Shown here: positions 3,450 to 9,717 of the stretch, one piece after another
How positions within the stretch are numbered: the first letter of the stretch is position 1
How the letters are laid out: each line of letters starts with the position of its first letter
NCBI GenBank assembly: GCA_945906305.1
Contig: CAMDQT010000001.1
Location: 1 to 64,000, forward strand
Direction: 5' to 3'
Length of the DNA: 64,000 nt
Source: Ferrithrix thermotolerans DSM 19514
Lineage (GTDB): Bacteria; Actinomycetota; Acidimicrobiia; Acidimicrobiales; CAIXPF01
The notes under the pieces: generated by a model
Told to the model about the DNA's origin: nothing
Seen by the model: only the letters and a program-made list of their open reading frames with translations
The model's database searches: none
Program-made: the position numbers and the translations under genes

Positions 3450-3570
3450 GGTTCTCACGTTACCGGGGCAGAAATCATCGGCCCGATTTCGCCCCCGCGC
3501 CAGCCGGAGCGACGCGTGAGCACCCTCGGGCTGGCGAATGTGGAGCGACCATTGCTGGCACACTGGCCGC

Positions 3571-5877
3571 ATGGCGCGTGCGTTCACCCACTGGGGCACC
3601 TATGAGCTCACCGTCGTGGACGGGCGCCTGACCGCGGTGGACCCGATCCCCGAGGACCCCGACCCCTCGCCCATCGGCCAGGGCTTGTTGGATCTCGCCG
3701 ACCATCCGCTACGCGTGCGCCGTCCGGCCGTCCGACGGGGCTTCCTTGACGAGGTCAGTTCCGGTCGCCGTTCGAGGGCGCAAAGTGGTCGGCGGCGGGG
3801 TGCGGAGCCCTTCGTCGAACTGCCGTGGGACGAGGCCGTGGACCTCGTCGCCGCAGAGCTGGAGCGGGTCCGGGTGGATCACGGCAACGAGGCCATTTTC
3901 GGGGGCAGCTATGGGTGGGCGTCGGCAGGCCGCTTTCATGACGCTCCGGCACAGTTGCACCGTTTTCTCAATGTGCTCGGTGGGTTCGTCTCGAGCCGGT
4001 GCTCGTACTCCTACGCCGCGGCGCAGGTGATTCTGCCCCATGTCATCGCCGACTGGTTCGACCTGCTCGGTTATCACACCAGCTTCGAGGAACTCGCTCG
4101 CCACGGCCGTTTGGTGGTGGCTCTCGGTGGTCTGCCAGCCAAGAACCAGCAGGTCGACTACGGCGGGACCTTTCGTCATCTGGCCCCCGCCGGTATTCGT
4201 CTTCTGCGCGACGCCGGGGTGCGCCTAGTGAACGTCTCGCCTTTGCGCGACGACCTCGAGGACGGGTCGGGCGTGACGTGGATCCCCATCCGGCCGACCA
4301 CGGACACCGCGCTGTTGTTAGGTATCGCTCACACCTTGGTGGCCGAGGGCCTGCACGACGAAGCGTTCCTGGAGCGGTACTGCTCGGGCGTGGATCGGTT
4401 CATTGACAGCCTGGCGGGCCACGACGCCGAGTGGGCCGCGGCGATCTGTGCGGTCCCGGCGGAGCAGATCCGGGCGCTGGCGCGCGATCTTGCCGCCGGC
4501 CCGTCGATGCTCACCGCGGCATGGTCGCTGCAGCGGGCGGAGCATGGCGAGCAGGTCTATTGGGCCGTCGTGGCGGTGGCGTCGCTGTTGGGCCAAATCG
4601 GTACACCTGGCGGTGGGTTCGGTCTGGGCTACGGGTCCTCGAACCGAGTCGGTTCGGCGGAGGGAACCCAGGCCTTGGCTCGCCTGCCGGTCGGCCATAA
4701 CCCGGTGCAAGCCTTCATTCCCGTTGCCCGTATCACCGACCTTCTGAGCTCACCGGGCGCGAGTTTCACCTACGACGGTGTCGAGTACAGCTACCCCGAC
4801 ATCCGACTCGTCTACTGGTGCGGCGGCAACCCCTTGCACCATCAGCAGGACATCGGCGCACTGCTCGACGCCTGGCAGCGGCCCGAAACGATCATCGTGC
4901 ACGAGCAGGTGTGGAACCCGTTGGCCCGTCATGCGGACATCGTGCTGCCCGCGAGCACCAACCTCGAGCGCAGCGACCTCGGCTCAGTTGCTCGGATGGG
5001 TGCAGTGGTGGCGACGGGTGCGGTGCTCGCTCCACCCGGTGAGGCTCGCAGCGATCATGCGATCTTCGCGGCGATCGCGGCGCGTTTCGGTCTCCGCGAG
5101 CGGGTGACCTTGGGCCGGGACGAGGAAGGCTGGCTCCGTTGGGTATGGGAGGAAACGGCGCTGCGGGCCCGTGCTCGGGGCGAGGAACTGCCAACGTTTG
5201 AAGCATTGCGGGAACAAGGGGTTGCCACCTTCGGCCGACCGGAGCGGCCGACGGTTCTGCTCGAGGCCTTCCGAGCGGACCCCGTGGCCAACCCCCTGCA
5301 CACCTCCTCCGGTCGCATCGAGTTGTACTCGCCGGTGATCGAAGCCTTTGCCGTTGCGGATTGCCCGCCCACCCCAACGTGGTTGTCGCCCCAGGAATGG
5401 CTCGGTGCGCCCTTGGCGGCGGAGTTCCCGCTTCATCTGCTCACCAACCAGCCCGTGGCCAAGCTGCACAGCCAACTCGATTTCGGGCGGGTGGCGCGGG
5501 CGGCGAAGCGTTCCGAACGTGAAGTGCTCCACATGAACCCTGCGGATGCCTCCGCCCGGGGCCTCATCGATGCCGACGTGGTGAGGGTCTTCAACCGGCG
5601 AGGCTCCTGCCTGGCTGCGCTGCGCCTGTCCGATGGCCTGATGGCCGGTACGGTCACGTTGCCTACGGGGGCGTGGTACGACCCGCTCGAACCGGGCGAT
5701 CCGCACTCGATGTGCGTGCACGGCAATCCCAATGTGCTCACCTCGAATCGACCGGCTTCGGGGCTTTCCCAGGCACCGGCCGCGCAGAGCTGTTTGGTCG
5801 ACGTTGAGCGTTGGAACGCAGCGTTGCCGCCGGTGCGTGCTCATCAGCCGCCGGTGTTCGTGGCCCGTGAAGGCTGA
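3571..5877 (+). CDS. molybdopterin oxidoreductase of the DMSO/biotin-sulfoxide reductase type
   Basis: 768 residues from ATG 3571. There is no [4Fe-4S] cysteine motif at the N-terminus and no twin-arginine signal, as in cytoplasmic BisC-like enzymes that reduce S- or N-oxides. The molybdenum-ligand region is SRCSYSYAAAQ with serine at residue 147 in the position of the DMSO-reductase ligand. Further pterin-binding landmarks are GGNPLHHQQD, DIVLPASTNLER, LLTNQPVAKLHSQLD and the C-terminal GNPNVLTSNRPAS. It overlaps the start of mutY by 11 bases, so the two are probably co-transcribed. The substrate is not determinable; methionine or biotin sulfoxide repair would be consistent with a neighbour that repairs oxidised DNA, but that is inference. 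Confidence 0.85.
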   Translation: MARAFTHWGTYELTVVDGRLTAVDPIPEDPDPSPIGQGLLDLADHPLRVRRPAVRRGFLDEVSSGRRSRAQSGRRRGAEPFVELPWDEAVDLVAAELERVRVDHGNEAIFGGSYGWASAGRFHDAPAQLHRFLNVLGGFVSSRCSYSYAAAQVILPHVIADWFDLLGYHTSFEELARHGRLVVALGGLPAKNQQVDYGGTFRHLAPAGIRLLRDAGVRLVNVSPLRDDLEDGSGVTWIPIRPTTDTALLLGIAHTLVAEGLHDEAFLERYCSGVDRFIDSLAGHDAEWAAAICAVPAEQIRALARDLAAGPSMLTAAWSLQRAEHGEQVYWAVVAVASLLGQIGTPGGGFGLGYGSSNRVGSAEGTQALARLPVGHNPVQAFIPVARITDLLSSPGASFTYDGVEYSYPDIRLVYWCGGNPLHHQQDIGALLDAWQRPETIIVHEQVWNPLARHADIVLPASTNLERSDLGSVARMGAVVATGAVLAPPGEARSDHAIFAAIAARFGLRERVTLGRDEEGWLRWVWEETALRARARGEELPTFEALREQGVATFGRPERPTVLLEAFRADPVANPLHTSSGRIELYSPVIEAFAVADCPPTPTWLSPQEWLGAPLAAEFPLHLLTNQPVAKLHSQLDFGRVARAAKRSEREVLHMNPADASARGLIDADVVRVFNRRGSCLAALRLSDGLMAGTVTLPTGAWYDPLEPGDPHSMCVHGNPNVLTSNRPASGLSQAPAAQSCLVDVERWNAALPPVRAHQPPVFVAREG

Positions 5878-6770: not shown

Positions 6771-7283
6771 TCAGGCGCTGAGGTGGCCGAGCAACTGGTC
6801 TACGAACTGCTCGGCCATGACTTGCATCTCGGCGTCGGTGCGGTCCTGAATCGGGTGGGGGACGAACACTCGGGCGGGTTCGAGTCCGAGAGCTTTGGCT
6901 TGGGATGCGGCGGCGTCGATGAACACCTCGGAGGCGATGAACACCGACGGGATGCCGCGGATTTCAAGGTCAACGGTGTCGTGCACACTGCACGACGTGC
7001 AGCTGCCTCAATCGGCGAGCGCTTCGATCACCAGGTTGCACTCCTGGGAGATTTGATGGCGCAGGTCCGCAGGCGCGGGCTTGGTGAAGGTGGGTTTGGA
7101 GTAGCGCTTCACCCCGAAGCCTCGGTCTTCGAGCAACTCCTGGAGCCGATCGAGAAACACGTTGCCGCGGGGCTTGCTGATGTCGAGCAGACCGATGGTC
7201 ATGCCGTCGATGACCGCTGGTCGCTCGCTGCGTTGACGGGTCACCGGCCTTTGCTCGTTGGTGGGATCAAGGACGATGGTCAA
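6771..7283 (-). CDS. UGSC-family candidate selenoprotein (in-frame TGA read as Sec92)
   Basis: 170 residues if the TGA at 7010-7008 is decoded as selenocysteine. Frame and sequence style continue unbroken across it: before, ISKPRGNVFLDRL, KPTFTKPAPADLRHQI and NLVIEALAD; after, GSCTSCSVHDTVDLE and VFVPHPIQDRTDAEM. The motif reads U-G-S-C-T-S-C. From memory, public annotation has a 'UGSC family (seleno)protein' with U or C at this site; a related Sec-X-X-Cys arrangement is known in redox selenoproteins. The start is TTG 7283, 7 bases after AAGGAG and overlapping the upstream stop as TTGA. If TGA is a true stop, the product would be a 91-residue fragment lacking the thiol motif. Confidence 0.72.
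6988..7002 (-). promoter_or_regulatory. small hairpin just downstream of the Sec TGA (possible SECIS component)
   Basis: On the minus strand, CTGCAC-GTC-GTGCAG forms a 6-bp stem with a G-first 3-base loop, beginning 5 bases after the TGA. Bacterial SECIS elements are coding-region stem-loops just downstream of the UGA with a G near the start of the loop; the loop here is closer to the UGA than in the Escherichia coli examples, so assignment is tentative. Confidence 0.3.
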
Positions 7284-8713
7284 CGGTTCGCTCCTTCGTT
7301 GTGCGCACTGGTCTGGATTGGGTGGCAGATCATCTGGCTTCCCGTCGGCCCAGATACCCAGCCCTCGATGAGGGCCGAGAACAATCCGGCATCGCCGCCG
7401 GCGTACACAATTGCCGGGCCATCCCAGCGGGGGGCGGGGGTTGACTTGGCGAGTTGAGCGAAGACCCGCTCGTTGAGCTCGCCTCGGACTCGCGCCTTGT
7501 CCCACCCATCCTGGGAGAAGACCCGACCGTGTTCCGGTCCGATGACCAGCAACATGTTGTCGAGGCGGCGGGCGAAGAAGGGGTCGATGTTGGCGGACAC
7601 TCTACGGACGAAGGCATCGATGAGGTCTTCGGCGCGGCGCGAGAGTTGGTCCACAATGGCCGAAGGGCCGTGACCGGCGAACAATGACACCGTGTCTGTT
7701 CCCTCGGGGTGGCCTGCCTCGACGGACATCGGCACCCAACCGGTCGGCAGGTCGGCCTCATTTTCGCTCATCGCCCAGCCGAGCTTGCTCGGTGCCCCGA
7801 ACGCGGAGCGGTCGATGCCGTGTCGGCCGGGCCGTCCACCACCGACGTTGCGGATGACGAGTTGCAAGGCCCGGCCGATGGTGGAGTTCGCCCGGTTGCC
7901 CTGGCCCAGCACGTTGTGACCGGAGGTCATGCCGACCCTGCTCGCCAGCGGGCCGTTGACGATGAGCAAGGGACCGGAGAAGTAGGTGGTGCACAGCAAG
8001 CCGTGGATGTTGAACGTGTCGGTGCAGGCGGCCTCAACCGCGGCAAGCACGATTGGAAGGTACTCCGGCTTGCAGCCGGCCATCACCGCGTTGATTGCCA
8101 CCTTCTCGACAGTGCAGGCAACCAGCTGTGGCGGAACGACCGCGACGATCTCGTCCGCGGCGCGGTGGGTGCCCTCAAGCATGCGCAACACCCGCGCTTC
8201 GGTAGGAGGTACCACCGGTAGCCCGTCGGTCCATTCGCGCTCGAACAGCGCTTCCATCTCGTCCTCGAGGCTGGCTAGTTCCAGCCGGCGGGCCTGCAGG
8301 ACGCCACCCTCGAAACGCACCCGGAGCTGATCGACGATGGCCGGATCGACCGACATCGATCCGCAGCCGGGCCGGTAGTCCGCCAGACCAGCGCCGAGAT
8401 CGCTCAGCCCGGTGAGCTGTTCCCACGCGGGCCGAGACCAGCCCTCGGTCCTGGCTGTTTCCTGGCCGGCCTCGATCCGGAGCAACGTCGGCACGGTCTC
8501 AATCTGATGGTGATAGGAAACGGCTAGGTCAGCGTCGTGGATGAGCCGGGTCACGCCCTCGGGGAAGGTCGGGTCGTCTTGGGTGTACACGGTCAACGCA
8601 ACCCCGCGACGTTGGAGTTCGCTGAGTACGGGGGCGACGAGCTCGCAGGTTGGGCAGTCACGTTTGACCACCGCGACCACGCCATCTGTCAACTCTGCCG
8701 CGGAAGATTCCAT
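7280..8713 (-). CDS. two-domain protein with N-terminal CPTC thioredoxin-like domain, partner of the UGSC protein
   Basis: 477 residues from ATG 8713. Residues ~10-80 are thioredoxin-like: VVAVVKRDCPTCELVAPV with CXXC at 20-23, and TVPTLLRIEAG carrying the cis-Pro. The remaining ~380 residues (EREWTDGLPVVPPTEARV, MAGCKPEYLPIVLAAVEA, TSGHNVLGQGNRANSTIGRA, GHGPSAIVDQLS) form a long domain of unknown activity; several Cys lie in it. Its stop overlaps the TTG start of the UGSC gene by four bases, so the two are translationally coupled and probably act in one thiol/selenol redox reaction. Reaction unknown. Confidence 0.7.
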   Translation of the reverse strand: MESSAAELTDGVVAVVKRDCPTCELVAPVLSELQRRGVALTVYTQDDPTFPEGVTRLIHDADLAVSYHHQIETVPTLLRIEAGQETARTEGWSRPAWEQLTGLSDLGAGLADYRPGCGSMSVDPAIVDQLRVRFEGGVLQARRLELASLEDEMEALFEREWTDGLPVVPPTEARVLRMLEGTHRAADEIVAVVPPQLVACTVEKVAINAVMAGCKPEYLPIVLAAVEAACTDTFNIHGLLCTTYFSGPLLIVNGPLASRVGMTSGHNVLGQGNRANSTIGRALQLVIRNVGGGRPGRHGIDRSAFGAPSKLGWAMSENEADLPTGWVPMSVEAGHPEGTDTVSLFAGHGPSAIVDQLSRRAEDLIDAFVRRVSANIDPFFARRLDNMLLVIGPEHGRVFSQDGWDKARVRGELNERVFAQLAKSTPAPRWDGPAIVYAGGDAGLFSALIEGWVSGPTGSQMICHPIQTSAHNEGANR

Positions 8714-8823
8714 CGCGGTCACCCTAGAGCGCGGACCGCAGCCGCGCCCGTTGCCGCACCTCCTCGACGTGAACCTGGTCACCTCGGTCGACCGATGTCG
8801 CTTCGTTTCGGTAACGTTTGGTT

Positions 8824-9717
8824 ATGCAGCCGGGGGAGCACGAGTTGCCGGTTCGTGCGGACGACACGTTGGCAGTCACGTTCTATGGGGTACGGGGTTC
8901 CACCCCGTGTTGCTCCCCGTCCGTCGGCCGCTACGGCGGGAATACTTCCTGCGTTGTCGTGACGGCCCCCCACTGTGTGCCGCTGTTGCTCGATCTGGGC
9001 ACCGGGGCGCGTGAATACGGGCGGACCATCCCCGCGGGTAAGCCCTTCGCCTGTCGGGCGCTGCTGACTCACCTGCACTGGGACCACGTGCAGGGCCTTC
9101 CCTTCTTCAGGCCCGCGCTGGTGTCGGGCAGCCACATCGAATTGCTCGCTCCACCCCCTGGCGGTGGGCTCGGTCTCTCCACGGCCCTGGACTCGGCGAT
9201 CCATCCACCGTTCTTTCCGATCACGTTGGACGAGTTGCCGGCGACGGTCGTACTGGACGAGATCGAAACTGGGGTGCGCTTGCCTTTCGGCGACCTGGGC
9301 GTTGTCGCTCGCAACGTGCCCCATCTCGGCCCCACGGTCGGCTATCGGCTGGAGTGGCGGGGCGTCGCTATTGCCTACATCCCCGATCATCAACAGCCGC
9401 CGTCCGGCTGGGGGATCGACCCGGAGGTGCTGGCGCTCGCCGACGGCGTCGACCTGCTCATTCACGACGCTCAGTACAGCTCGGCGGAGTTTGTCGCCAA
9501 GCAGGCGTGGGGACATTCCACGGTTCCCTACGCGGTCGAGGTCGCCCGCCGTGCCGGTGCCCGAACGCTGGCGTTGTTCCATCACGATCCCGACCACGAC
9601 GATGCCATGATCGATTCCTTGGTCCAAGAGGCCCGTGTCCTGGCCACCGGTCACCCACTTGAGGTGCTTGGTGCCGCCGAGGGCCTCAGCCTGACCTGGG
9701 TCGGTCGATCTGGCTAG
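8824..9717 (+). CDS. MBL-fold metallo-hydrolase
   Basis: 297 residues from ATG 8824 (an in-frame TTG lies 6 bases upstream). Metallo-beta-lactamase fold of the PhnP/RNase Z-like branch: TFYGVRGSTPC opening, DLGTGAR, the di-zinc motif THLHWDH, later NVPHLGPTVGYRLE, AYIPDHQ, IHDAQYS and a LFHHDPDHDD histidine cluster near the C-terminus. Likely phosphodiesterase or phosphohydrolase chemistry; substrate not apparent. Divergent from the thioredoxin/UGSC operon. Confidence 0.8.
   Translation: MQPGEHELPVRADDTLAVTFYGVRGSTPCCSPSVGRYGGNTSCVVVTAPHCVPLLLDLGTGAREYGRTIPAGKPFACRALLTHLHWDHVQGLPFFRPALVSGSHIELLAPPPGGGLGLSTALDSAIHPPFFPITLDELPATVVLDEIETGVRLPFGDLGVVARNVPHLGPTVGYRLEWRGVAIAYIPDHQQPPSGWGIDPEVLALADGVDLLIHDAQYSSAEFVAKQAWGHSTVPYAVEVARRAGARTLALFHHDPDHDDAMIDSLVQEARVLATGHPLEVLGAAEGLSLTWVGRSG

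Follow-up and report, generated by a model that had tools for sequence, protein, structure and literature searches.

A UGSC-family selenoprotein and its constant upstream partner: comparative evidence for Sec insertion and a proposed thioredoxin-fed reductase role

In the mechanism proposed for D-proline reductase, the PrdB Sec attacks the substrate carbon, after which a PrdB Cys frees the product while a Se–S bond forms; glycine reductase relies on thioredoxin reductase and thioredoxin to reduce bonds of this kind (PMC3091704). The UGSC family (NF041046 / PF24696), represented in the Global Ocean Sampling selenoproteome, opens its UGSC motif with Sec or Cys; a 2008 ocean survey gives the protein a likely Trx-like fold and a redox function and describes its fusion to an "Unknown_1" domain (PMC2398784). 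UAG-encoded Sec in UGSC proteins of the Geodermatophilaceae has already been published, according to a paper that cites earlier work (PMC5330540).

Here we describe a UGSC gene and its upstream partner on the minus strand of a 64,000-nucleotide stretch of DNA (the window). The gene is a new member of this already known family and no functional difference from it was seen, with a partner that here carries an N-terminal thioredoxin domain. The features of the gene are as follows.

6771..7283, minus strand: UGSC-family selenoprotein of 170 residues, Sec at residue 92, TTG start at 7283 (translation and family profiles)
7008..7010, minus strand: Sec-encoding TGA, residue 92, first letter of U-G-S-C (TGA column conserved in homologues)
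6999..7001, minus strand: Cys95, invariant, candidate resolving Cys of the UxxC motif (family alignment)
6978..6996, minus strand: bacterial SECIS-like hairpin GUCGUGCA-GUG-UGCACGAC, 8 bp, GU-containing loop, within the coding sequence and directly 3′ of the TGA
7291..7297, minus strand: Shine-Dalgarno-like GAAGGAG, 7 nt ahead of TTG 7283
7280..7283, minus strand: TTGA stop/start overlap of partner gene and UGSC gene (sequence; a −4 overlap in most homologues)

Translation reproduced exactly the frame on which the original prediction had been built, i.e., TTG 7283, 91 codons, TGA 7010–7008, 78 sense codons and a stop TGA at 6773–6771, with U-G-S-C-T-S-C at the junction. The claim that this is a UGSC family with U or C at the motif also held: the protein exceeds the cut-offs of NF041046 (E = 2.3e-46; 157.4 bits, cut-off 125) and PF24696 (E = 4e-44; 151.2 bits, cut-off 25), the family model match spans both sides of the TGA, end to end, and homologues have U or C at the aligned residue. 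The frame remains open upstream to GTG 7505, an extension that falls within the partner gene; the TTG 7283 start is supported because GAAGGAG lies 7 nt upstream and because its TTGA overlaps the partner's stop, an overlap that likely couples translation of the two genes.

The open 78-codon stretch is by itself no evidence for Sec, because about 15% of random frames of the same composition would be open over that length; the evidence is comparative. TGA occupies the identical column in 17/17 close homologues, and divergence from 17 homologues is concentrated at codon position 3, upstream and downstream of the TGA alike. Across 111 distinct homologous genes, the first [UC]GSC position is U (TGA) in 100 and TAG in 2, with Cys in the remaining 9—the Cys homologues at residue 92 with which the original prediction had proposed an alignment—and the Cys at +3 from U92 is invariant.

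The hairpin itself is conserved and covaries. GU stands at the loop start in 102/102 Sec-type genes vs 0/9 Cys genes (the same 111 distinct genes), and the codon supplying it is AGT in 93 and TGT in 9 of the Sec-type genes, where AGT makes up only 19% of AGY serine codons elsewhere in these genes. Double-sided changes were seen at 5 of the 8 pairs among 29 diverse sequences (shuffle mean 1.5; 0/500 shuffles as high), counts that cover several phyla and, coming from related sequences, do not represent independent events. Compensation is clearest in a subfamily with Trp (TGG) for Cys (TGC), where the next Val codon changes from GTG to GTC and the pair is restored; among the four closest Cys homologues, three keep the Val codon as GTG and lose the hairpin pair. 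The window's own hairpin folds with a z of −2.17. Scans of the window with Rfam and ARAGORN gave no match (the tRNA-Sec sits on another contig, and no SECIS match was listed).

The genome (3.10 Mb, 52 contigs, 98% complete) contains the machinery to match. SelA (E = 1e-94) and SelB (279 bits, over cut-off) lie close together on contig C6, as does a tRNA-Sec (66.9 bits; anticodon TCA, i.e., UCA), and SelD (C41; E = 1e-102) has its own in-frame TGA within GAGUACKLG. A second UGSC gene with an in-frame TGA is found at C5:37589, and two short PrdB/GrdB-like proteins with in-frame TGA and the motifs UPVC and UPLC (C3:787–1179 and C9:94545–94931) are likely further selenoproteins. From SelA, SelB, SelD, tRNA-Sec and several genes with in-frame TGA together, it follows, on gene content, that the organism very probably makes several selenoproteins. 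That it makes selenoproteins had been anticipated by the original prediction, and the searches proposed there turned up all four of selA, selB, selD and tRNA-Sec, as well as a covarying SECIS-like hairpin directly 3′ of the TGA. The hairpin and this machinery would together insert Sec at residue 92.

A third UGSC–core copy (C32:28968–30261 plus C38:1–271; "core" denotes the main part of the partner, below) is seemingly split by a contig break near the Sec/Cys codon, with the C-terminal part of UGSC at the C32 end, the N-terminal part at the C38 start and the order UGSC then core. Within the window, a molybdopterin oxidoreductase (3538–5877; Pfam Molybdopterin, E = 4e-45) was the sole such gene noticed nearby, and no Sec TGA was noticed in its frame.

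Phyletic and codon patterns agree with a Sec reading. UGSC occurs in 106 of 296 surveyed genomes of the organism's class, and among the matches listed SelA is present in 82/84 genomes with TGA-type UGSC vs 3/11 that are Cys-only (p = 6e-8), the TGA/Cys typing being incomplete, as it covers those matches and omits the weakest UGSC matches; the two TGA-type genomes lacking SelA have completeness values of 79% and 96%. Geodermatophilus obscurus and Candidatus Blastococcus massiliensis use TAG as the codon, have a tRNA-Sec with anticodon CTA and retain the hairpin. The Geodermatophilaceae proteins share with the one described here the family, hairpin, partner and thioredoxin domain, and differ in codon and anticodon (TAG and CTA there, TGA and TCA here). 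In a public Paracoccus plasmid record (6381–6950), a UGSC gene is annotated as two hypothetical proteins broken at the TGA; selB lies 4.5 kb from it.

These observations bear on whether the TGA is decoded as Sec at all. TGA is a stop under table 11, and a pseudogene, a sequencing error or a true stop would have the functional product end at 7008; given a TGA column kept across phyla, coding constraint downstream, SECIS covariation, the Sec machinery and the TAG/CTA co-change, we regard this as extremely improbable. A changed code that reads TGA as another amino acid (e.g., Trp), for which the analysis found no support, is scarcely credible at all, as TGA terminates both the UGSC gene (6773–6771) and the partner gene (7282–7280), the residue that homologues have there instead is Cys, and the tRNA-Sec carries the anticodon TCA. 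We are close to certain, on comparative grounds, that the frame 7283–6771 encodes a full-length UGSC-family selenoprotein with Sec at residue 92.

Going beyond the original prediction are a constant upstream partner, homology to GrdB/PrdB and a link to thioredoxin. The partner comprises the following.

7280..8713, minus strand: partner gene with N-terminal thioredoxin domain and ~330-residue core (co-occurrence, adjacency or fusion with UGSC)
8405..8707, minus strand: thioredoxin-fold domain of the partner, CPTC at 8656–8645 (structural alignment)
7283..8266, minus strand: partner core, no known family, with invariant DGLP, AGC and GRA motifs (alignments)

The partner likely starts at ATG 8713, in a frame open to GTG 8782, and its closest named relatives belong to uncultured Acidimicrobiales, from which we place the window, as probable, in class Acidimicrobiia. 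Its first domain, which the partner carries in the window's subfamily, aligns with solved thioredoxin-fold proteins (VIA-align Z 10.5, rmsd 2.7, 101 residues), matches TIGR01068 below that model's cut-off (E = 0.0077) and has CPTC, CETC or CATC in 12/12 homologues possessing the domain; in a search by structure with the full partner model, most matches were to thioredoxins and fell on the first ~100 residues. The core, by comparison with Pfam, NCBIfam and PDB sequences, has no match, and it contains one strictly invariant Cys (residue 214, within AGC).

Using a core-only profile, we found the core in 105/296 genomes, 103 of them common to the 106 UGSC genomes, and UGSC and core copy numbers are equal in most multi-copy genomes (6/6, 7/7, 5/5, 4/4). 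The partner stands beside UGSC across Actinobacteria, Proteobacteria, Acidobacteria, Chloroflexi and others, is the only constant neighbour of UGSC in chromosomal neighbourhoods of the class, and adjoins or is fused to it in all 13 plasmid contexts. UGSC–core fusions occur in Variovorax, Sporomusa and Vibrio, the latter two resting on weak UGSC matches (E ~4e-5), and six Acidimicrobiales core copies with downstream sequence have no adjoining UGSC. Comparative genomics shows UGSC to be half of an obligate two-gene module with its upstream partner. The Unknown_1 domain of the 2008 paper may be this core.

Several arrangements depart from the simple pair. A SecG-like frame follows in three of the Acidimicrobiales core copies without a UGSC neighbour; two divergent UGSC–core pairs, of different subfamilies and on opposite strands, lie within 4 kb of each other; and haloarchaeal plasmids, with UGSC of Cys type, can have the order core–UGSC–core, which suggests a heteromeric core. 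In the window, a metallo-beta-lactamase-fold protein (8818–9717) diverges from the partner gene and keeps its place in several relatives, probably as local synteny. This protein, MutY and SufB were rejected as pathway clues on that ground.

What the module might do is best approached through its kinship. In profile–profile comparison by hhalign (probability 95.5, E = 1.4e-8), UGSC aligns with the Sec domain of GrdB/PrdB, Sec column to Sec column, and the two have features around Sec in common, as well as GIP and HP segments; NCBIfam similarity is weak (E = 0.001–0.006), and members of the UGSC alignment gave no match to PF07355 at E 0.1. By profile comparison, UGSC and the Sec domain of GrdB/PrdB are homologues. 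With the PrdB and GrdB proteins (PF07355) of D-proline and glycine reductases it shares Sec, a Cys at +3, this homologous domain, a larger partner encoded directly upstream and, here by gene linkage, a connection to the thioredoxin system. Unlike them, UGSC lacks the N-terminal region of GrdB and falls short of the PF07355 model, its upstream partner is a protein other than GrdE/PrdA (PF09338; no match of the partner, and no similarity to GrdE by hhalign with only two GrdE sequences), and it is spread widely through SelA-positive Actinobacteria, Proteobacteria, Chloroflexi and Acidobacteria, with some homologues having Cys. GrdB loci of the class have the pyruvoyl subunit GrdE directly upstream, in an order matching core–UGSC; full GrdE–GrdB pairs with a Sec TGA (UGTSTRC, UGTGTRC) were seen in two genomes of the class.

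AlphaFold predicts UGSC (pLDDT 94) as a flavodoxin/receiver-like alpha/beta domain with five strands, in which residue 92 sits at the N-terminal end of the helix that follows the third strand. The model matches flavodoxin, receiver and lumazine-synthase folds, and thioredoxins are absent among the matches listed; the model does not support a Trx-like fold, a missing match being no proof. The top structural match, 8s7v_H (Z 11.3, 13% identity), is a subunit from the activation complex of methyl-coenzyme M reductase; as it scores barely above many unrelated alpha/beta folds, it was set aside as a basis for inference.

Thioredoxin genes adjoin the module in some lineages (i.e., trxB-trxA-core-UGSC in Arthrobacter and core-UGSC-trxB in Roseovarius); trxB is also nearby in Variovorax sp. 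SRS16, and two further records have TrxB-like proteins. TrxB adjoins only 6 of ~33 modules without a fused thioredoxin domain. In cultured relatives, the UGSC–core neighbours are transporters, CoA-transferases, aconitase X and LysR regulators, operons whose content suggests catabolism of imported organic acids, and chromosomal context in the window's clade gave no pathway clue.

The UxxC motif and the thioredoxin link (fused domain and trx neighbours), together with the likely Trx-like fold and redox function given in the 2008 survey (PMC2398784), would also suit a general thiol-disulfide or peroxide-reducing protein of thioredoxin-like fold that cleaves no substrate and for which the partner serves as docking or target protein. 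We think this unlikely, as the predicted fold is flavodoxin/receiver-like with thioredoxins absent among the matches listed, the homology is to GrdB/PrdB, and an obligate ~330-residue partner and catabolic operons would be unusual for such a protein.

We favour instead a role in which the module acts as a thioredoxin-fed reductase. The core would bind and activate a small organic substrate; Sec92, at the helix N-terminus of the flavodoxin-like domain, would attack it as nucleophile; Cys95 would release the reduced product, leaving a Se–S bond; and the partner's CPTC thioredoxin domain would reduce that bond, a step that we infer from genetic linkage (the fused domain and the trxB/trxA neighbours). 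Because the parts match those of GrdB/PrdB, yet the core is unlike GrdE, the UGSC module probably operates in the manner of GrdB/PrdB while standing outside their family, and, as the core has no homology to the two GrdE sequences compared, substrate activation would probably differ.

One way in which the likeness could extend further is for the core to mature as GrdE/PrdA do, through a putative cleavage, so that it would bear a cofactor at the invariant Cys of AGC (residue 214) and the module would be a non-homologous counterpart of the pyruvoyl reductases. That this Cys is the one strictly invariant in the core, and that GrdE precedes GrdB as the core precedes UGSC, would fit; the lack of homology to GrdE and the many roles open to an invariant Cys lead us to consider it improbable.

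Taken as a whole, the statement that UGSC is read with Sec, belongs to an obligate module and has a thioredoxin-fed, GrdB/PrdB-like reductase role is one we hold to be reasonably probable, the enzymatic role being what we infer. More tentatively, UGSC and core could form a thioredoxin-driven selenoreductase class of their own, with kinship to GrdB/PrdB solely via the Sec domain, in which an unrelated substrate-binding subunit replaces the pyruvoyl subunit—a class that would be widespread in soil and aquatic bacteria and have a Cys form in haloarchaea.

Annotation breaks UGSC genes at the TGA, and the partner family is without a model in Pfam or NCBIfam. For UGSC, among the commonest selenoprotein families lacking an assigned function, what is added is the obligate partner and a mechanism proposal; together with the kinship to GrdB/PrdB and the proposed feed by thioredoxin, these make UGSC function concretely testable.
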